Positions 27,282 to 37,280 of a DNA stretch of 64,000 nucleotides are shown here, piece after piece. The notes under the pieces are model-generated. The model made no database searches, was not told where the DNA came from, and was given only the letters and a program-made list of their open reading frames with translations. This DNA is from Bacilli bacterium. Lineage in GTDB: Bacteria > Bacillota_I > Bacilli_A > RF39 > UBA660. The stretch lies in contig JAGAIS010000006.1 in the NCBI GenBank assembly GCA_017626405.1, forward strand, positions 195,100-259,099. Reading direction: 5' to 3'. The translations under genes were made by a program, and so were the position numbers. Within the stretch, counting starts at the first letter, position 1. Each line of letters begins with the position of its first letter.

Positions 27282-27313
27282 TAAAAAAGAGTAGAATTTA
27301 TTAATTTCTACCC
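27282..27313 (-). terminator. intrinsic terminator at the end of the NAD cluster
   Basis: GGGTAGAA and TTCTACTC arms (one G-T pair), then TTTTTT on the minus strand. It overlaps the nrtR stop codon. Confidence 0.75.
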
Positions 27314-28122
27314 TTATATTTAAATAACTTACTTGGTCTATGTCCTTCTCCGGTTTTTATTTTTTCCGTCTTTACAACTTTTGGTTCAATAATTCTTCTA
27401 AATGCTGGATCCAATAATTTTTTATTTAAAATTACTTCATATACTTGTTGTAATTCGCCCAAAGTAAAATATTCAGGCATCATATTAAATACAATATCAG
27501 TATATTCACATTTATTCTTTAATCTTTCTAATCCCAATAGAATAACCTTCGCATGATCGAATGCCAAAGAATCATTTTTTACAATATTAAATGAATACCT
27601 ATCAGTTGTCTCTTCTCTCAATGTCTTCTCAATTTGGAAACTGATTGTCGTCTCACCTGAATCGAGAACGATATCAACGACATTATTCTTCTCTTCATAT
27701 AAAGTTATATCAAACCATTTAGCACGTTCACCAAGTTTATCTTGTAATCTATCTTTATCGACAAGTGCCATATAAGATACTGATACAACTCGCATACGAG
27801 GATCGCGATCAACAGAACCAAATGTATATAATTGTTCTAAATATATATGATCAAGATTTGTCTCTCTTTTTAAAATTCTTCTTGGAGCATCTTCTAAATC
27901 TTCATCGATATTTAAGAATCCTCCAGGCAAACACCACTTATCTTTATATGGATAGTTTTCTCTATTAACTAGTAAGATACTCATCTTCTTAGCATCATTT
28001 TTTCGATAATTAACCTTTTCTTGATTAGATACGCTGAATATTAATATATCAGCTGTAATCGATAACAAATCAAAGTCAGACTTGTTATAGGCTGCTAAAA
28101 ATTCTTCTTCACTAGCAAACAT
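27301..28122 (-). CDS. nrtR: NrtR-type Nudix transcriptional regulator of NAD metabolism
   Basis: NrtR proteins sense ADP-ribose or related NAD products and repress NAD synthesis genes. The 273-residue protein has an N-terminal Nudix domain (about 18-150) and a C-terminal winged helix (YFTLGELQQVYEVILNKKLLDPAFRR, about 215-240). The Nudix box GGFLNIDEDLEDAPRR then ILKRETN lacks the REUxEE glutamates, as in regulators that lost hydrolysis. SGETTISFQ and the Arg-rich DNA-binding wing are typical. RBS AGAGGTGG. It is the last gene of the NAD run. Confidence 0.93.
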   Translation of the reverse strand: MFASEEEFLAAYNKSDFDLLSITADILIFSVSNQEKVNYRKNDAKKMSILLVNRENYPYKDKWCLPGGFLNIDEDLEDAPRRILKRETNLDHIYLEQLYTFGSVDRDPRMRVVSVSYMALVDKDRLQDKLGERAKWFDITLYEEKNNVVDIVLDSGETTISFQIEKTLREETTDRYSFNIVKNDSLAFDHAKVILLGLERLKNKCEYTDIVFNMMPEYFTLGELQQVYEVILNKKLLDPAFRRIIEPKVVKTEKIKTGEGHRPSKLFKYKGRN

Positions 28123-28153: not shown

Positions 28154-28957
28154 TTATCTTTCCAATATTTTATTATTTATTACTTTTATAAAATGAAAAT
28201 CATTCATTCTAAGGCACTTAATTGTCTTAGCTCCAATCTTAGATTCTACTTTAATAGCATCTTTAATCGTGTGATTAACTCCATCTACAGATAAGAATAA
28301 ATCATCATATTCTTTTTCGGGTACTAAAGAAATTACTTTATCTCCCGGAATAATAACTGAATTATTTAAAGTTCTAAAACATTTATTGTTCAAAGGAGCT
28401 ATAGGTGTAATCTGTAATGTTTTTAAAGTATTATAGACAATAGATCCACCAAAACTCATATTGTAAGCGGTTGATCCTGTAGAAGTACTTATGAGTATTC
28501 CATCTCCGGTAAACCTTTCTAAGAGTTCGCCTTCGACATATACGGGAAGTTTTAAAGTATTAAACTCAATATTTCTCAAGACAACTTCATTTAAAGATTC
28601 ATATATCTTAACATCGTTTTCAGTGATTACTTTAGTCTCTTGAATTCCCAATTCTTCTATCTTAAATTTATTGCTATTTAATCTTTTAACAAAATCTAAG
28701 GTTGTATTAAGATCTATCTCTTGAAGAAATCCTAAAGTTCCACAATTAATACCTATATAATATATTTTATCATTAAAGTTATTATCTTTTATCATTCTCA
28801 AAAAAGATCCATCGCCACCAATAGATATTGCCAAATCATAGTTCTTTTTAACAATCTTAAAACCATACTTAACAAGTTCTAACTCTAAATCTTTAGCTAC
28901 TACGCATGACTTTTCATTATCATTTACAAACAGTTTAATCTTATTAATTCTTCTCAT
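28154..28957 (-). CDS. nadK: NAD kinase
   Basis: Phosphorylates NAD to NADP. The 267-residue protein has ISIGGDGSFLRMI (GGDG motif, near 46), INCGTLGFL, TGDGILISTSTGSTAYNMSFGG (near 146) and SVDG. These are diagnostic for NadK. It overlaps the PncC gene by 14 bases. The N-terminus starts with MRRINKIKLFVN. It lies in the NAD gene run. Confidence 0.97.
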   Translation of the reverse strand: MRRINKIKLFVNDNEKSCVVAKDLELELVKYGFKIVKKNYDLAISIGGDGSFLRMIKDNNFNDKIYYIGINCGTLGFLQEIDLNTTLDFVKRLNSNKFKIEELGIQETKVITENDVKIYESLNEVVLRNIEFNTLKLPVYVEGELLERFTGDGILISTSTGSTAYNMSFGGSIVYNTLKTLQITPIAPLNNKCFRTLNNSVIIPGDKVISLVPEKEYDDLFLSVDGVNHTIKDAIKVESKIGAKTIKCLRMNDFHFIKVINNKILER

Positions 28958-29423
28958 TTACAACACGCCCTAACTCGTCAATTATTGCATCTATTACTAA
29001 ATCTTTATTCTCTCTTCGAGATTTTTTATCTACTTTAAGTGATAAATCTACATATTCACCATCATGATAAATACTTATAAATACTTCATTATCAGCACCA
29101 AAGTTATTTGCCTCATCAGCACGATTTAATTTTCCCGTTATACCTATTCCATAAGTAGAATTTGCAAAATCACTTATATTCTTAGCCATTTCATGAGCGG
29201 TTTCTATACTATACACTGAATATTTATCAATAATATTAGAATCTACTCCCATTTTAATTTTGTATTCATTCGAATATGTAACTGCACTAAATTTTAAGAC
29301 ATTTGAAGCCCCTTCTATGTTAGTTATTGCATTTGCAACTCCGCCTCCAGTGCATGACTCCATCGTAGCTATCGTTTCATTATTCTTAGATAATATTTCA
29401 ATTATCTCCTTAAAATCCTTCAT
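28944..29423 (-). CDS. pncC: nicotinamide-nucleotide amidase (CinA C-terminal family)
   Basis: Stand-alone CinA C-terminal domain proteins hydrolyse NMN to nicotinic acid mononucleotide and so recycle NMN released by ligase and other NAD-using reactions. The 159 residues contain ATMESCTGGGVANAITN (catalytic Ser in ES.TGG, about 18-34), FSAVTYSNEYKI and GIGITGKL. The usual GP in GITGPAG is replaced (GKLNRADE), a small variation. It overlaps nadK and sits 10 bases after nadD. Confidence 0.92.
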   Translation of the reverse strand: MKDFKEIIEILSKNNETIATMESCTGGGVANAITNIEGASNVLKFSAVTYSNEYKIKMGVDSNIIDKYSVYSIETAHEMAKNISDFANSTYGIGITGKLNRADEANNFGADNEVFISIYHDGEYVDLSLKVDKKSRRENKDLVIDAIIDELGRVVNEKN

Positions 29424-29432
29424 TATATCCCT

Positions 29433-30005
29433 CTATTCATAAAAGTGATTATCTTTAATGTACTTAAATACATCTTCATCTAAAAAATCTTCATAAGAAT
29501 CTATATTTTCTCTAATCATTGTCGACGAAATGCTCGAAATTCCAATGTTAGCAACAATAATATTATCCCTATAATCACTGAATCTTTCTAATATCTTATC
29601 GATATTATCCGTTTCTCTTTTTATTACTAATACTTTATAATTACTTAAAATACAATAACCATATTTCCATCTATCCATATAAGTAAGATTATCTGTTCCA
29701 CATATAAAATAGATATCATCTTTAGGATATTCATTCTTGAAGTAATCAAGAGTTTCAATAGTATATGTATCATTAGTAACCATCTCATGATTATCGACAC
29801 TTAGATTATCATATTTACGAGTAATAAGACGCACCATTTCAAATCGGTTACTACTCGATAGCATATTACTCTTATACTTATATTTATCTCCCGTTGGAAC
29901 AAATATAACTCTATCTACATATTTATCTTCAATTAGTTTTACGGCAATGTTTTCATGCATTTTATGGGGAGGATTAAATGAACCACCAAATATCCCAATT
30001 TTCAT
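29433..30005 (-). CDS. nadD: nicotinate-nucleotide adenylyltransferase
   Basis: Converts nicotinic acid mononucleotide to deamido-NAD. Seen: GIFGGSFNPPHKMH (nucleotidyltransferase HxGH-type loop, about 4-17), PTGDKYKYK, ICGTDNLTYMDRW and the C-terminal SISSTMIREN. Length 190 is normal. The signature His-x-x-His reads HKMH. ATG at 30005 follows AGGTGAGG; GTG at 30014 overlaps it. Confidence 0.96.
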   Translation of the reverse strand: MKIGIFGGSFNPPHKMHENIAVKLIEDKYVDRVIFVPTGDKYKYKSNMLSSSNRFEMVRLITRKYDNLSVDNHEMVTNDTYTIETLDYFKNEYPKDDIYFICGTDNLTYMDRWKYGYCILSNYKVLVIKRETDNIDKILERFSDYRDNIIVANIGISSISSTMIRENIDSYEDFLDEDVFKYIKDNHFYE

Positions 30006-30023
30006 TTTCCTCACCTTCTTATC

Positions 30024-31118
30024 TTATCTATTTTCTTTTAATTGTAATAATTTTTGATATGTTTCATTACCATCATGATGTAATGGTTCTAGAGATTCTC
30101 CATTATTTAAACGACTTACTATTTGTGCAATTTTCTCGCTGCAATCAACATCTACATACCATTCTCTATCTTTAATATATCTTGGCACATAAGTTATATT
30201 TGTCGAATAAACTTTGTCAATTAAACCTTTATTATAAGCTTCATCAAACGCATCTATTCCTTCAGAGAACAAAGCAAATGTTGCACATATTAACACCTTC
30301 TTTGCGCCCTTTTCTTTAGCTTTCTCGGCTATATCTAAAACACTTCCTCCGCTCGCTATCATATCATCGACAATAATTATATTCATGCCTTCCATACTAT
30401 CTCCTAAATAGTCATGTGCAACTATTGGATTTTTACCATTTACTAAGACTGAATAATCTCTTCTCTTATTGAAAAATCCAACTTTACATTTAATCAAATC
30501 AGCATAATATCTTGCTCTTTCAACGGCTCCTGCATCAGGTGCAATAACAAGTACATTATTAAGTGAATCAGCATCATTTATATACATTGATTCTAGAACA
30601 CTGCTAGTTGCATAAAAATTATCAAAGGCCATTCTTGGAACAGCATTTGCAACACTAGGATCATGAGCATCAAAAGTAACAAACGATCTAATTCGATAAT
30701 ATTCAAGTTCTTGCAAACCCATTGCACAATCTAGAGATTCTCTTCCTTTTCTCTTATGTTGACGAGATTCATATAGAAGAGGCATTACAACTGATACTCT
30801 TCTAGCATGATTAGAAGTTGCTGCAATCACTCTTTTAACATCTGCAAAATGTTCATCAGGTCCAAGAATATGATCTACTCCACGATACTTTCTCGTAATA
30901 GAATAATTACCTACATCACTTAATATATAAACATCTTTTTCTCTAATAGATTCACAAATTTCTAACTTTCCTTCACCATTTGCAAACCTCGATTCCTTAA
31001 TTGGAACTATATAACTAGTATCACTATTTCTTAGTACTTTTAAATGATTATCTACTAGTTCACCTAATTCTTTCGCATTTTCAAGTACGATTAGTTTTAA
31101 ATCGTCAATTTTTGTCAT
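30024..31118 (-). CDS. prs: ribose-phosphate pyrophosphokinase (PRPP synthetase)
   Basis: Makes PRPP, the co-substrate of PncB and of nucleotide synthesis. Seen: VMPLLYESRQHKRKGRES (catalytic flexible loop, RQ.R type), FDAHDPSVANAV, and the PRPP-binding motif IIIVDDMIASGGSV. ATG at 31118 gives a normal N-terminus (MTKIDDLKLI) and has GGGTGG about 9 bases upstream. The frame stays open to 31169, but that ATG lies only 7 bases from the -10 element. The 364-residue length is longer than most Prs (about 315), with insertions. A promoter of its own suggests a separate or extra transcript. Confidence 0.93.
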   Translation of the reverse strand: MTKIDDLKLIVLENAKELGELVDNHLKVLRNSDTSYIVPIKESRFANGEGKLEICESIREKDVYILSDVGNYSITRKYRGVDHILGPDEHFADVKRVIAATSNHARRVSVVMPLLYESRQHKRKGRESLDCAMGLQELEYYRIRSFVTFDAHDPSVANAVPRMAFDNFYATSSVLESMYINDADSLNNVLVIAPDAGAVERARYYADLIKCKVGFFNKRRDYSVLVNGKNPIVAHDYLGDSMEGMNIIIVDDMIASGGSVLDIAEKAKEKGAKKVLICATFALFSEGIDAFDEAYNKGLIDKVYSTNITYVPRYIKDREWYVDVDCSEKIAQIVSRLNNGESLEPLHHDGNETYQKLLQLKENR

Positions 31119-31144
31119 TACCCAATACCACCCATCTATATTCT

Positions 31145-31166
31145 GAGAATGCATCCATACATTCTC
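31145..31166 (-). other. stem-loop in the prs mRNA leader
   Basis: GAGAATG and CATTCTC arms enclose an 8-base loop about 30 bases upstream of the prs start. Its role is unknown. Confidence 0.4.
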
Positions 31167-31175
31167 CATAGTTAA

Positions 31176-31294: not shown

Positions 31295-33232
31295 CTATTC
31301 CATATTATTTAGTTCTATAATCCAATCGTTAACAGACGCATCACTCGGCATTCTTAAATCTCCTCTAGGAGAAACAGATATTGTACCAACTTTAGGTCCA
31401 TCAGGTAGGCAACTGCGTTTAAATTGTTGACTGAAGAATCTCTTGATAAATACTATCAACCATTTTTTTATTTCTTCACTCTTAGTATCAGTAAAAGTAT
31501 TCTTGGCGAGATAATAAATCTTAGTAGGCTCAGCTCCATATCTCAAGAAGTGATATAGGAAGAAATCGTGTAATGCATAAGGTCCAATTGTATTTTCCGT
31601 CAATTGTAATATTTCTCCCGATTCACTAGGAGGCAAAAGTTCTGGCGATACCGGAGTATTGACAATGTCCATAATTATATTTGATTTATCCTTGTCCTCT
31701 TCTATTTCAGCAAAGTATGTTACTAAATATCTAACTAAAGTCTTTGGTATCGATACATTGACAGCATACATACTCATATGATCTCCATTATAAGTACACC
31801 AACCTAACGCAAGTTCCGATAGATCCCCAGTACCAATGACTAACCCTCCTACTTTATTTGCATAGTCCATTAATATTTGCGTTCTCTCACGAGCTTGAAC
31901 ATTTTCATAAGTTACATCCAACTTTGCAGGATCGTGATCGATATCTTTAAAATGTTGTAGACAAGCATCTTTAATATTTATCTCTTTTAAAGTAGCTCCA
32001 TATAATTCAACAAATTTACAAGCATTGTTATATGTTCTATTAGTTGTACCAAATCCCGGCATCGTTATACCAATTATATCCTTTTTATCAAGTCCTAAAA
32101 TATCATAAGCTTTATTTATTACTAAAAATGCTAAAGTTGAATCAAGGCCACCAGAAATTCCAATAACACATTTCTTTATTCCCGTAGCATCTAATCTTTT
32201 AGCTAGTGCATAAGCTTGAATATTTAGTATTTCTTCACATCTTTTTGATCGGCTTACAGAATCTTTTGGAACAAAAGGATAAGCTTCATAAGATCTCGCT
32301 AGCTCACTACCTGCATCATATCCTTTAAAATCAATGATATCATATACTTTATCTCGATCTTTAATAACTCCCATATAAGAAATATCTCTAAACCTCATAT
32401 TTTCTAATCGCGCTAAATCAACATCACTAAAAATTAAATTGGATTCGAAATTAAAACGATCATTCTTTGCTAGACATTTACCATTTTCATAGATAAATGA
32501 AGAACCTCCAAATACCAAATCAGTAGTTGATTCATTAATACCACTAGAAGCATAGCAATAAGCACTTATTGTCTTCTCCGATTGACTCTTAACTAAACTC
32601 TTGCGATATTCAGCTTTGCCAATAATTTCATTGGAAGCGGATAAATTAAAAATCACTTTTGCACCATGAATAGTAAGTTCATTAGAAGGAGGATAAGTAC
32701 ACCAAAGATCTTCACATATCTCGATTCCAAACATTCTCATATTATCTTTATTTTCACGGAATAAAATATTAGTTTTAAAAGGAACTTCTTCATCATCGAT
32801 GATAATTGAATCACTTATTCTCCTATTATCCTCACTGAACCAACGCTTCTCATAGAATTCTCCATAATTAGGGATATAAGTTTTCGGAACAATTCCTAAA
32901 ATATGTCCACTCTCTAATACTGCGGCACAGTTAAACAATTGATTATCACACTTTACTGGCAATCCAACAATAAAGACTCCTTTTACATTTTTGGTATAAT
33001 TTTTTAATTCAATTAATCCTTCCATTGCTCGATTAATCAAATGTTCATTTAGAAATAAATCTGCGCATGTATAACCTACCAAAGATAATTCTTGGAAAGC
33101 TGTCACTTCAACATTCTTGCTACTCGCTTCATCCATTACTTTTTTAATACTCTCGACATTGAATTCAACATCACTTATTTTAATTTTAGAAACAGCAGCT
33201 CCCACTCTCATAAATCCGTATTTTTTACTCAT
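31295..33232 (-). CDS. nadE: glutamine-dependent NAD synthetase
   Basis: Amidates deamido-NAD to NAD with ammonia from glutamine. The 645-residue protein fuses an N-terminal nitrilase-type glutaminase (Glu48, Lys117, Cys173 in FQELSL, VPKTY and EICEDLW) to the C-terminal synthetase (GISGGLDSTLAF loop near 360, VIGTGDLSE, and YNGDHMSMYAVN). All catalytic motifs are present. It lies 20 bases after the ADP-ribose Nudix gene. Confidence 0.97.
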   Translation of the reverse strand: MSKKYGFMRVGAAVSKIKISDVEFNVESIKKVMDEASSKNVEVTAFQELSLVGYTCADLFLNEHLINRAMEGLIELKNYTKNVKGVFIVGLPVKCDNQLFNCAAVLESGHILGIVPKTYIPNYGEFYEKRWFSEDNRRISDSIIIDDEEVPFKTNILFRENKDNMRMFGIEICEDLWCTYPPSNELTIHGAKVIFNLSASNEIIGKAEYRKSLVKSQSEKTISAYCYASSGINESTTDLVFGGSSFIYENGKCLAKNDRFNFESNLIFSDVDLARLENMRFRDISYMGVIKDRDKVYDIIDFKGYDAGSELARSYEAYPFVPKDSVSRSKRCEEILNIQAYALAKRLDATGIKKCVIGISGGLDSTLAFLVINKAYDILGLDKKDIIGITMPGFGTTNRTYNNACKFVELYGATLKEINIKDACLQHFKDIDHDPAKLDVTYENVQARERTQILMDYANKVGGLVIGTGDLSELALGWCTYNGDHMSMYAVNVSIPKTLVRYLVTYFAEIEEDKDKSNIIMDIVNTPVSPELLPPSESGEILQLTENTIGPYALHDFFLYHFLRYGAEPTKIYYLAKNTFTDTKSEEIKKWLIVFIKRFFSQQFKRSCLPDGPKVGTISVSPRGDLRMPSDASVNDWIIELNNME

Positions 33233-33251: not shown

Positions 33252-33854
33252 CTAATTTTTTCTCTTTAAGGTTTTCCTAGCTTCCTCTATAGCTATTATA
33301 CCATTAGCATCGTTAATAATACCAGTATCTAAAAGATAATATAGATCGTCTAATGAGCACTTCATATATTTTATATATTCATCGCAATCAAGTTTTTGCG
33401 GATACTTTTCAATACATCCAAGCGCTAAAAAGCAAGTGTTATAAGCTGCACTTATTCCCTGATCCTGATAATAGGACTTTAAAGGAATAAGTTCTTGAGA
33501 CTCGCATCCTATCTCTTCTCTTAACTCTCTTTTTGCGGCCATCATTGGAGTTTCCCCGGGATCGATATAACCCGCAGGGATTTCAACTCCAATTCCATTT
33601 TTTGTAAACACTCGAGGTTGTACAATGACAAAAGTTTCATTCTCTAGAGTTACGGGAACTATTACGACAGCACTTCCATCTCGATTATTTTTAGTTAGCT
33701 TTTCGCGATTAAATGTTTTACCATTTGCAAGAGTTACTTGATGAGTCTCTATATCCAAAAACTTATGTCCCGCATTGGGAGTCTGATCCATATCTACGAC
33801 ATTTAATTCTTCTTTTAACTTTTCTAAATCTTCAATAATCTTTCTCGTTTTCAT
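33252..33854 (-). CDS. ADP-ribose pyrophosphatase-type Nudix hydrolase
   Basis: The 200-residue protein has a perfect Nudix box: GYIDPGETPMMAAKRELREE then IG (about 98-120). An N-terminal segment of ADP-ribose pyrophosphatase type precedes it (GKTFNREKLTKNNRDGSAVVIVPV). It probably splits ADP-ribose to ribose-5-phosphate and AMP, recycling NAD breakdown products, and may lower the NrtR ligand. The genomic place between pncB and nadE supports this. Substrate is inferred from domain layout and context. Confidence 0.9.
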   Translation of the reverse strand: MKTRKIIEDLEKLKEELNVVDMDQTPNAGHKFLDIETHQVTLANGKTFNREKLTKNNRDGSAVVIVPVTLENETFVIVQPRVFTKNGIGVEIPAGYIDPGETPMMAAKRELREEIGCESQELIPLKSYYQDQGISAAYNTCFLALGCIEKYPQKLDCDEYIKYMKCSLDDLYYLLDTGIINDANGIIAIEEARKTLKRKN

Positions 33855-33861
33855 ATTCCAC

Positions 33862-35331
33862 CTATTTCAATGCTAGAGATTTATGTTCTTCTATCAAATT
33901 ATTTTTGAACTCTACATATTCAGGTGTTGCACTAACATGATATACTGAAGGCATATTTGCTCTTTTTACTTCCGGATAAAGGGTTGCCATTTGAGCTTCA
34001 CAATAAGCCTTGACTGTATCTAAATCCGGATCATCAAATACTAGTTTTCCATTATCAAAAATTGTTTGTTGTAATGGTACAATTTCAAAATCAGTAATTC
34101 TTTGCTTCTTTAGATAATCTGTTGGACTTACAATAATTAGATCATCACTTTCGATCTGTTCATTTTCTCGAGTCATAATATCTGCTACTGCATAACCTGT
34201 ATTTTTATCATAGGCACGATATAGATTTTTAATATCAGGATTAACTATTTTGATAGTATCTTCACTTAATTTAATCTTAGGAACCCAAGTGCTACCATCC
34301 TTTAATGCAACTTCTTTATATACGCATCCCATTCTTCCTTCCGGTTTACTGATATTATCCCCAACACCCAATGAATCAAATTCAGCTCCTTGATTAATCA
34401 ATGTCTCAATTGTCTCTGCAGTTAAACCATTACTCAAACATATTTTAGTTTGTGGAAATCCAGCCTCAATAAACATTTTTCTCGCTTCCTTAGATAGATA
34501 AGCCAAATCTCCTGAATCAATTCGAATACCAATATGATCTGTGCTTATTCCGTTTTCTCTCATCCATTCAAAAGTTTTAATGGCATTAGGTATACCGCTC
34601 CTTAGAGTATCAAATGTATCTACTAGTAAAATGCAATTATTTGGATAATTCCTAGCAAATTCCTTAAATGCTTCAAGTTCATTATCGAAACTCTCAATCC
34701 AACTATGCGCCATTGTTCCAAGTCCAACTTTATTAACCATATCTGCAGCTTCGTCATTACTCGTTCCAATACATCCAGCCATCATGCCATATAAAGATGC
34801 ATCAATAGCTGCCTCAGTACCATCCGCACGGCGTGCACCAAATTCCATGACTCCTACCCCTTTAGGTGTTGCTTCTATAATTCGCCTTGCTCCCGTAGCA
34901 TGTTCCATAGCTCCATTTACTAAAGATAGAATAGCTGTCTCAAGAATCTGAGCTTCCATTACTTTTGCAACTACTGTTATAAGTGGTTCATTTGGAAATA
35001 CTGGTGTACCATCAGGCATAGCTTTTATCGTACCAGTAAATTTAAAATTTCTCAAATATTCAACATATTCATCACTAAAACCTGCTCTTTTAAAATAATC
35101 TAATTCCTTTTCGCCAAAGTGCAAATGTTCAATATAGGATATAACCTTATCAACACCAGCCATAATAGCATATCCACCATTATTTGGAACTTTTCTAAAA
35201 AATACATCAAATGCTGCTAAAGTATCTTTCTTTCCTGAAGCTAAATATCCTTGAGCCATCTTATGCTCATAATTGTCAGTCAACAAACTATAATTTCTTC
35301 CCAATCTTTCATAACCATTAAATATTTTCAT
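33862..35331 (-). CDS. pncB: nicotinate phosphoribosyltransferase
   Basis: Joins nicotinic acid and PRPP to nicotinic acid mononucleotide, the first committed step of salvage. The 489-residue sequence shows LLTDNYEHKMAQGYL (N-terminus), EFGARRADG (near 175), GTMAHSWIESF, IRIDSGDLAYL and GVGDNIS. These are the family signatures, including the catalytic phospho-acceptor His in MAHSW. It is second in the run, 27 bases after pncA-like. Confidence 0.97.
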   Translation of the reverse strand: MKIFNGYERLGRNYSLLTDNYEHKMAQGYLASGKKDTLAAFDVFFRKVPNNGGYAIMAGVDKVISYIEHLHFGEKELDYFKRAGFSDEYVEYLRNFKFTGTIKAMPDGTPVFPNEPLITVVAKVMEAQILETAILSLVNGAMEHATGARRIIEATPKGVGVMEFGARRADGTEAAIDASLYGMMAGCIGTSNDEAADMVNKVGLGTMAHSWIESFDNELEAFKEFARNYPNNCILLVDTFDTLRSGIPNAIKTFEWMRENGISTDHIGIRIDSGDLAYLSKEARKMFIEAGFPQTKICLSNGLTAETIETLINQGAEFDSLGVGDNISKPEGRMGCVYKEVALKDGSTWVPKIKLSEDTIKIVNPDIKNLYRAYDKNTGYAVADIMTRENEQIESDDLIIVSPTDYLKKQRITDFEIVPLQQTIFDNGKLVFDDPDLDTVKAYCEAQMATLYPEVKRANMPSVYHVSATPEYVEFKNNLIEEHKSLALK

Positions 35332-35358: not shown

Positions 35359-36153
35359 TTAAGCTCTAAGCTTAAGTTCTTTTTCTCTTTCATATAAATG
35401 CTCAAAGTTTTCAACCACTTCTATTCCTGATTTTCTCATTACTTCAAAAGCAAATTCTGTTTCACAAGTTCGATCATGTCCAGGAGCATCAAAAGTACTT
35501 ACTGCACTTGCAACAACAAAAATATGCACTTTATGATTTATTTCGTCTAATAGTTTTGCAATTGTTTTAGCAAAGTCAAGTACACATAAATCTGTACATA
35601 CTCCAGCAATTACTATTTCTTTTAAATCGCGTAAATCTTCTAAGTCAATTTGCAAATCTAAATTAAGTCCTCCATTAATTGAATTCTTATAGTAGATATT
35701 TGTATTATCCTTATACTCTTCTTCAATAAATTCTGGTATTAAATCAGCTTCAGGAGTACCAATAATACAGTGAGATGGATAAGTTAAGAACTCAACAGCA
35801 TCTTCAATGTGACCCTCCATTATGAAGTTAACTAGCTCTCCTTCTTGTCTAAATTTTTCAATTAACCTTTTTTGCTCAGGCACTAGCGCATTATAATCTT
35901 TATTATGCATGTCTCCAAAATTTACAAATCCATTATTCATATCAACTATAAATAAAGCTTTAGTAAATTGCTTTTTTGTAACATCTTTCTCTTTAGCTAA
36001 TTCCTTTAAATTTCTAACATCCTGAAGTAACTCTTCAAAAATTCTCTTTTGTTCTGGATTCATCTCTCTTATTAATCTTAAGTATTCACGATAATCTCTA
36101 TTATTGTTATACTTATTTGCTCTAATAGTTCTCTTATTATCTTTTCTTTCCAT
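35359..36153 (-). CDS. pncA: isochorismatase-family nicotinamidase-like enzyme
   Basis: Likely deamidates nicotinamide to nicotinic acid. The fold motifs are present: FIVDMNNGF (catalytic Asp, near 70), EGHIEDAVEF with SHCIIGTPEADL (metal-site region), YYKNSINGG (Lys) and AGVCTDLCVLD (nucleophile Cys near 196). An extra 60-residue N-terminal helix makes it 264 residues, longer than usual PncA (about 200). The metal motif reads EGH in place of DxH, so the exact substrate is inferred from its place as first gene before pncB. Confidence 0.88.
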   Translation of the reverse strand: MERKDNKRTIRANKYNNNRDYREYLRLIREMNPEQKRIFEELLQDVRNLKELAKEKDVTKKQFTKALFIVDMNNGFVNFGDMHNKDYNALVPEQKRLIEKFRQEGELVNFIMEGHIEDAVEFLTYPSHCIIGTPEADLIPEFIEEEYKDNTNIYYKNSINGGLNLDLQIDLEDLRDLKEIVIAGVCTDLCVLDFAKTIAKLLDEINHKVHIFVVASAVSTFDAPGHDRTCETEFAFEVMRKSGIEVVENFEHLYEREKELKLRA

Positions 36154-36172
36154 TTTCTTTCCTCTTTCTTTT

Positions 36173-36199
36173 TTGTTATTAACTTTTTATTAATAACAA
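36173..36199. promoter_or_regulatory. 27-base inverted repeat, candidate NrtR operator 2
   Basis: Perfect 10-base arms TTGTTATTAA and TTAATAACAA flank 7 bases. The inner core TTATTAA-7-TTAATAA equals that of the second repeat at 36234-36254, whose centre is 58 bases away. It lies in the leader of the NAD operon, downstream of the promoter. Confidence 0.65.
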
Positions 36200-36213
36200 T
36201 TCTTATAATAATT

Positions 36214-36233
36214 CAAGAACATTTTTGTTCTTG
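36214..36233. promoter_or_regulatory. 20-base inverted repeat, third palindrome of the NAD promoter
   Basis: CAAGAAC-6-GTTCTTG sits between the two AT-rich operators. It has a different core, so it may bind another factor or be an RNA hairpin in the leader. Confidence 0.5.
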
Positions 36234-36254
36234 TTATTAACATTATATTAATAA
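36234..36254. promoter_or_regulatory. candidate NrtR operator 1 over the -10 element
   Basis: TTATTAA-7-TTAATAA. The -10 TATAAT of the NAD operon promoter lies inside the 7-base centre (36242-36247), so binding would block RNA polymerase. The assignment to NrtR is inferred from the nrtR gene in the cluster. Confidence 0.65.
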
Positions 36255-36270
36255 GATATTATTTTGTCAA
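36242..36270 (-). promoter_or_regulatory. consensus promoter TTGACA-17-TATAAT of the NAD operon
   Basis: -35 at 36265-36270, -10 at 36242-36247, on the minus strand; both hexamers are perfect. The leader of about 82 bases carries two further palindromes before the first gene at 36153. Confidence 0.9.
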
Positions 36271-36319
36271 CACTCTTTTTAACATTTTTTTAAAAAGATA
36301 TAAATTCACCTATTCAAAT

Positions 36320-36374: not shown

Positions 36375-37280
36375 ATGGGAATAAATATGGAAATAGTAAA
36401 AAGTGAATTGAAAAGACTTGGTGAACTAGAAAGTAATTTTGGTGAATACAGTAAAGTATATCTCAATACTACAGAAAACATAAGTGGTATTATGTCCAAT
36501 ATGGATATAAAAGATAAAAGTGTATTAACCGTTGCCGGTTCTGGAGATCAAGCAATCAACGCCTATCTAAACGGTGCTAAAAGTGTTAGTATATTCGACG
36601 TTAATCCCCTATCTTTTATCATGACTGATTTAAAAATAACGGGGGCTAGAAAACTAAGTCACAGCGAGTTTTGTGATTACTTCATTCCCGTATGTGGGCG
36701 TTTGTTAGATTATCATATATTCAATAAATTGAGTAATTATCTATGTGAAGATACAGCTATCTACTTCGACTATCTATATCATACCTACACAATTCAAGAG
36801 ATATTTAATAAGACAATGTATCGCTTCTATACTAATGTATCTAAACTACACGATATGAATGACTATTTAAAAAGAGATAATTTTGAAAAATTACCAGCAA
36901 TACTAGAGGGAAAAAGTCCAACACCAATAAAGGCAAATCTAACTGAACTTAAAGATAAGTTAGAAGGAACATACGATGCTATATTACTTTCCAACATAAG
37001 CGATTCAATTGATAATATTTGGGATACTAATACGCTTAGATGTTACAAGAGATTTATTCATACTTTAAGTAAAAGACTAAATAATGGTGGAATAATCCAA
37101 TGTGGATATATTTATTCGAAATATAGCACTCAAGCGCAAACACCAATAATCGTCAATAGAGAAAAACGCGAAAAGATATTTACTAAAGATGAATTTAGAG
37201 AATGTAATGTTGAAACTTTTGTCAATGCATCTCCATACGACGATACAGTTATTTACTACGAAAAGAAAAGAAGAAATTAA
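36375..37280 (+). CDS. SAM-dependent methyltransferase-like protein (DUF3419-like)
   Basis: The 301-residue protein has a Rossmann-like start: KSVLTVAGSGDQAINAYLNGAKSVSIFDVNP, shown here by its motif I (VAGSGDQ) and the acidic strand end (FDVNP), near 56-80. The YDAILLSNISDSID region fits motif III and NGGIIQCGYIY fits a later strand. It resembles DUF3419/BtaA-type enzymes that transfer an aminocarboxypropyl or methyl group. AAGGGGA site. The reaction and substrate are not known. It is divergent to the NAD operon and shares its upstream region. Confidence 0.7.
   Translation: MGINMEIVKSELKRLGELESNFGEYSKVYLNTTENISGIMSNMDIKDKSVLTVAGSGDQAINAYLNGAKSVSIFDVNPLSFIMTDLKITGARKLSHSEFCDYFIPVCGRLLDYHIFNKLSNYLCEDTAIYFDYLYHTYTIQEIFNKTMYRFYTNVSKLHDMNDYLKRDNFEKLPAILEGKSPTPIKANLTELKDKLEGTYDAILLSNISDSIDNIWDTNTLRCYKRFIHTLSKRLNNGGIIQCGYIYSKYSTQAQTPIIVNREKREKIFTKDEFRECNVETFVNASPYDDTVIYYEKKRRN

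Follow-up and report, generated by a model that had tools for sequence, protein, structure and literature searches.

A candidate NrtR operator array and a probable 5′-terminal RNA hairpin at the promoter of a nine-gene NAD cluster in uncultured Bacilli

The closest described systems are the NrtR regulons of Shewanella, Synechocystis, Mycobacterium and Streptococcus. The locus analysed here shares with them a regulator with a Nudix-like domain, a degenerate Nudix box and a C-terminal winged helix, the location of its gene with NAD genes, probable autoregulation and an operator built as an inverted repeat around a 7-bp spacer. The NrtR site of M. smegmatis, tested by gel shift, is GTTTTCGA-N7-TCGAAAAC, and the streptococcal site is ATA-N-TTTA-N3-TAAAA-N2-ATA (PMC6800001). 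NrtR-family motifs are highly variable between lineages (PMC4666351), and thus a lineage-specific core is expected. Several NrtRs are released by ADP-ribose, and one, C. glutamicum NdnR, reportedly by NAD (PMC4666351). AraR of Bacteroides (arabinose) belongs to the same protein family and has an operator of about 22 bp, whereas its ligand and target genes differ; tandem AraR sites have been reported upstream of araM orthologues (PMC4666351). In many Firmicutes, the NAD genes are controlled by NiaR, the 3H-domain niacin repressor. In the case of the mRNA-stabilising stem-loops of ompA, papA and the aprE leader, a hairpin is located within a few nucleotides of the 5′ end, as predicted for this locus. 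RppH of B. subtilis requires a minimum of two unpaired nucleotides at the 5′ end, with a preference for three or more (PMC3997798).

The window, which is the whole stretch of 64,000 nucleotides analysed, has a GC content of 28.8% and comes from a 1.245-Mb draft genome that is about 89% complete. The nearest named loci, according to NrtR, belong to uncultured Bacilli of the gut, among them Candidatus Onthousia and Candidatus Coprovivens. Nine genes are arranged on the minus strand in the order pncA-pncB-nudix-nadE-prs-nadD-pncC-nadK-nrtR. The first gene (35359–36153) encodes a pncA-like protein of the isochorismatase family with an N-terminal extension; only the Isochorismatase domain is recognized, and the gene context points to a nicotinamidase. 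It is followed by pncB for nicotinate phosphoribosyltransferase (33862–35331), a Nudix hydrolase gene (33252–33854), nadE for glutamine-dependent NAD synthetase (31295–33232), a prs-like gene for ribose-phosphate diphosphokinase (30024–31169), nadD (29433–30014; TIGR00482 above cut-off), pncC for a CinA-type NMN amidohydrolase (28944–29423; TIGR00199 above cut-off) and nadK (28154–28957). The Nudix hydrolase is probably an ADP-ribose pyrophosphatase. As its Nudix box, read from the sequence, is intact and it carries no DNA-binding domain, it was rejected as a candidate regulator. No match to NadA was found in the genome, and NAD is therefore presumably made by salvage. In contrast to the described NrtR regulons, the whole salvage-to-NADP pathway is present in one cluster.

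The last gene, nrtR (27301–28122, minus strand), encodes a Nudix-related repressor with a C-terminal winged helix. The first-pass annotation had placed an NrtR regulator in the cluster, and the product is indeed a true NrtR. It matches the Pfam models NUDIX (N-terminal, 1e-12) and NrtR_WHD (C-terminal, 1e-15) above cut-off. The best PDB match is AraR (5bs6), and S. oneidensis NrtR (3gz5/3gz6) is also matched. At the positions of RE, EE and G, the Nudix box GGFLNIDEDLEDAPRRILKRETNL does not match the catalytic signature GX5EX7REUXEEXGU. Against NCBIfam NF050029, the protein scores 172 bits (E 1e-50), below the curated equivalog cut-off of 400; this model appears to describe a narrow NrtR subgroup, whereas the family-level Pfam models pass. 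The position of nrtR ties it to the NAD metabolism genes, and the tie is conserved in relatives, among which the NrtR identities are about 57 to 76%.

The promoter of the cluster consists of the −35 element TTGACA (36265–36270) and the −10 element TATAAT (36242–36247) on the minus strand. As annotated previously, it is perfect, matching 12 of 12 consensus bases, and the 17-bp spacing is kept in nearly all related promoters. According to the promoter geometry, transcription is predicted to start at A36235, 7 nt past the −10 element. The nine genes would be co-transcribed from this promoter (36242–36270).

Exact copies of TTATTAA-N7-TTAATAA are located over the −10 element (36234–36254) and in the leader (36176–36196). 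Both copies had been noticed in the first-pass annotation; the first was placed correctly, whereas the leader copy had been given as 36179–36193. The larger perfect 27-base repeat described around the leader copy was confirmed at 36173–36199. The copy over the −10 element forms the candidate NrtR operator O2, CTTATTAA-TATAATG-TTAATAAC (36233–36255, minus strand), which contains the −10 element, mostly in its N7 spacer. The leader candidate, O3, is the perfect 27-bp palindrome TTGTTATTAA-N7-TTAATAACAA on the same strand, with 10-bp arms and a core at 36175–36197, located 58 bp downstream of O2. A weak third candidate, O1, had been missed. This N7 palindrome lies upstream of the −35 element and 42 bp upstream of O2 (about 36274–36298, minus strand), and it can be read with 9-bp arms (TCTTTTTAA-N7-TTAAAAAGA, 36274–36298) or 8-bp arms (CTTTTTAA-N7-TTAAAAAG, 36275–36297). 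In the whole 1.245-Mb genome, the exact 21-mer is found at just two places, both of them in this promoter, and about 0.45 copies per genome are expected from the trinucleotide composition. In the window, 19 N7 palindromes with 7-bp arms are found, and thus palindromy alone is weak evidence. Genome-wide scans with degenerate 21-mers (2–3 mismatches) gave matches no commoner than the reversed control, and so they are uninformative on further targets in this genome.

Both the core and the spacing of the motif had been proposed to be new. The core differs from the published sites compared, being ATTAA/TTAAT here and TTCGA/TCGAA in M. smegmatis. The spacing is not new, as the 8-N7-8 layout and the GTT...AAC ends are also those of the mycobacterial site (PMC6800001).

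Conservation of the sites was analysed in two sets of relatives. In the first set, 98 related genomes were searched for NrtR orthologues (E below 1e-30). They are present in 22 genomes of the same family, that of the window included, and also in some members of the class outside it. nrtR is present in all 21 same-family genomes with a pncA match. The pncA upstream regions of the nrtR-bearing family genomes contain 2 to 4 copies of the motif, the exceptions being a contig end, a pncA match that is too distant or a divergent NrtR. In eight genomes that lack nrtR (L062, L063, L071, L073–L075, L077 and L079), no site was found at the inspected pncA loci. The second set consists of 80 named loci fetched by NrtR, whose organisms partly overlap the first set. 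A site is located upstream of pncA in 37 of 40 nrtR loci, with at least two sites in 30, whereas the reversed-pattern control gave none in 40. The prs upstream region has a site in 18 of 33 cases, and relatives often carry a second operator-bearing promoter there. Over 1.26 Mb of nrtR loci, 136 sites were counted against 11 for the reversed control. Of 76 strong sites (15 or 16 of 16), 69 are found no more than 700 bp upstream of an NAD gene; the remainder include sites upstream of a short form of nadE (L206, L212), which was not picked up by the query. In 83 promoters, measured from O2, O1 is found at −40 to −42 bp, and most O3 sites are at +53 to +57 bp. O1 passes the score cut-off in 38 of these 83, and it is weak in the window too. 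As the related genomes share ancestry, these counts are not independent. Compared with the described NrtR regulons, the locus is distinguished by two to four operators at fixed spacing, together with a conserved 5′ hairpin in the leader.

The scan of the genome and its relatives, which the first-pass annotation had proposed, found the exact motif confined to this promoter within the genome and the site conserved at the NAD genes of nrtR-bearing relatives. Neither random occurrence nor a different motif in relatives was seen, save for a few deeper-branching NrtRs, which seem to recognise related motifs or different ones. Sequence and conservation together document the sites, their spacing and their tie to the NAD genes and nrtR. 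The NrtR operator is thus, very probably, the 23-bp palindrome GTTATTAA-N7-TTAATAAC, and we infer that NrtR is the protein that binds O1–O3.

Several further observations were made in relatives. In genome G024 (L061/L137), NrtR is divergent (45–50% identity), and pncA is preceded by no GTTATTAA-type site. Instead, three copies of an AT-rich repeat, about AGTATCATTNTAGTAATATGT, are present, suggesting that the operator specificity has switched. In other families of the class (L040:1433, L041:1452, L042:2337 and L043:2404), the site adjacent to nrtR roughly retains the outer GTTATTA...TAATAAC and not the inner bases, and the recognition helix differs too (KANFRRK versus DPAFRRI). In genome G003, a site of the NrtR type precedes a nadR-like NMN adenylyltransferase/ribosylnicotinamide kinase gene (L131:2-991), which extends the regulon to riboside salvage. 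One site near gyrA in genome G006 (L130) was rejected as a chance match, because no NAD gene is present and a TTTCACGTGAAA cluster is found instead. About nine TTTCACGTGAAA sites lie between gyrA and a tadA-like gene (L130:4320-5300), and this cluster resembles parS sites near an origin.

Between O2 and O3, the palindrome CAAGAAC-N6-GTTCTTG is present exactly as first described (36214–36233, minus strand). As RNA it would fold into a hairpin with an 8-bp stem and a loop of 4, CAAGAACA-AAAA-UGUUCUUG (−8.5 kcal/mol). With the predicted start at A36235, the stem begins at +3 and leaves two unpaired 5′ nucleotides. In relatives, arms at the same place include CAAGAG/CTCTTG, ACAAGT/ACTTGT, ACAAAGA/TCTTTGT, ACAGAT/ATCTGT and ACAGAA/TTCTGT, among others. 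At +5 to +10, the pair types vary among A-U, G-C, U-A and C-G while the pairing stays, which is the mark of an RNA stem. Among 78 non-redundant promoters, a stem (score at least 12) is present in 67%, compared with 12% of dinucleotide shuffles, 22% of arm-swapped species chimeras (maximum 33% in 200 trials) and 4% further downstream; in roughly one promoter out of three, no hairpin is evident. At 35 other TTGACN-(16–18)-TATAAT promoters of the same loci, the stem is found in 14%, versus 61% for promoters with NrtR sites (Fisher p = 1e-5). The first bases of the hairpin overlap the outer bases of O2, and part of the stem is therefore explained by the operator. The co-variation makes it very likely that the middle palindrome functions as a hairpin in the RNA.

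The 5′-terminal position and the need of RppH for unpaired nucleotides make a stabilising hairpin the most likely role, and we give about an even chance to stabilisation of the mRNA. In the literature searched, no earlier report of a 5′ hairpin at an NrtR-controlled NAD operon was found. Compared with the stem-loops of ompA, papA and aprE, the putative stabiliser here is tied to NrtR-site promoters and overlaps the operator edge. It is highly improbable that the hairpin, beyond stabilising, also couples the fate of the mRNA to NAD status, for example through control of a 5′ NAD cap at the initiating A or through binding of a metabolite or protein; the operon would then have a second NAD sensor, at the RNA level, which overlaps the NrtR operator.

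Alternatively, the hairpin, or an RNA hairpin formed by O3, might serve in attenuation or as a small riboswitch. The leader has a favourable fold (z about −6), and one terminator-like match occurs at the hairpin in this species. However, the hairpin is followed by AATTATTATA here and by AAAAATT-like sequences in relatives, without a U-run, and no Rfam match lies in the leader, the matches in the window being two tRNAs only. The O3 sequence is common to O1 and O2, which are not transcribed, and its changes in relatives often break the pairing, which fits a DNA site. The hairpin is also at the extreme 5′ end, and no competing structure was seen. We thus regard attenuation or a riboswitch as unlikely.

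Slightly less likely still is that the TTATTAA palindromes bind another regulator accompanying the NAD genes, NiaR-like or otherwise, and that NrtR binds elsewhere or nowhere. In favour of this reading, NrtR-family motifs are varied (PMC4666351). However, the genome of the window, which is about 89% complete, encodes no NiaR (3H domain), although the controls were detected; another NAD regulator could sit in the missing part. NiaR gave one sub-threshold match in the same family, and matches above cut-off are restricted to other families of the class. The motif and nrtR co-occur across the family, and pncA lacks the motif in genomes without nrtR. The 23-bp 8-N7-8 layout is also that of the gel-shift-tested NrtR site. 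We retain NrtR as the probable binding protein.

For the middle palindrome, the first-pass annotation had offered a second regulator or an RNA element. The palindrome is perfect in the window, as an operator of a second DNA-binding regulator might be. In relatives, however, the arms change together (AAGAG/CTCTT, AAGT/ACTT, AAAG/CTTT, AGAT/ATCT, AGAA/TTCT), whereas the position and the pairing stay constant. A DNA-binding factor would conserve the sequence and not the pairing, and so a second operator is improbable; the RNA element stands, and the second regulator does not. The Bacillus LexA box has a spacing of 4. A LexA-like GAAC...GTTC reading was rejected, because the spacing here is 6 and the arms co-vary. 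Chance formation of AT-rich, low-complexity palindromes, which the low GC content, the 19 N7 palindromes in the window and the control-level degenerate matches might suggest, has a negligible probability and is already refuted by conservation, the decisive evidence: the exact copies are confined to this promoter, and the sites are conserved at matching places in dozens of species.

Taken together, we consider it likely that the locus is an NrtR-repressed nine-gene cluster for NAD salvage and recycling with three operators and a 5′ mRNA hairpin. The promoter at 36242–36270 would drive the cluster, which ends in the gene of its own repressor. NrtR dimers would bind the 23-bp palindrome at O1, O2 and O3. 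At O2, NrtR would cover the −10 element and exclude RNA polymerase. O1, beside the −35 element, and O3 flank O2 at distances that would permit several dimers to cooperate, and cooperativity between the operators may be presumed from this spacing. By the precedent of other NrtRs, the repressor would be released by ADP-ribose, which arises when NAD is broken down, and NAD would be rebuilt; the ligand could be NAD instead, as for C. glutamicum NdnR. The Nudix hydrolase of the cluster would then destroy ADP-ribose to AMP and ribose-5-phosphate, and the switch would be reset. The ribose-5-phosphate could feed Prs and PncB and close a feedback loop, as the enzyme families suggest. The hairpin, about 2 nt from the 5′ end, would most likely shield the transcript from 5′-end-dependent decay.

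To a known kind of control, the window adds an NAD operon, probably under NrtR control, in which the operator is lineage-specific and the arrangement multi-site. It provides a model of the NrtR operator that can be applied across a large group of uncultured small-genome gut Bacilli, and the co-varying 5′ hairpin is an unexpected second layer at these promoters. The motif already draws prs, the nadR-like gene and an unknown small protein into the regulon. The small proteins, of about 120–143 aa, are often encoded by the first gene after the NrtR operator in the NAD clusters of relatives (L155:2355-2717, L158:7383-7781, L172:5009-5425, L175:1479-1910, L180:5101-5505, L183:4217-4627, L195:2017-2421, L203:2825-3238, L220:1015-1437 and L222:8862-9263). 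They align to the first member with 17–33% identity, the four scanned have no Pfam match, and no match was found in the genome of the window. This family is a candidate new member of the NAD regulon.

A protein of about 155 aa is encoded directly before nrtR, behind its own NrtR operator, in two loci (L169:9490-9954 and L153:9466-9942). It has no Pfam match and resembles a phosphoribosyltransferase, with the motif FLDDSFWSGKT. In the window, a divergent gene with a DUF3419 domain (36375–37280) has its own TCGACA-17-TATAAT promoter, and in some relatives the DUF3419 gene is also located near nadK.
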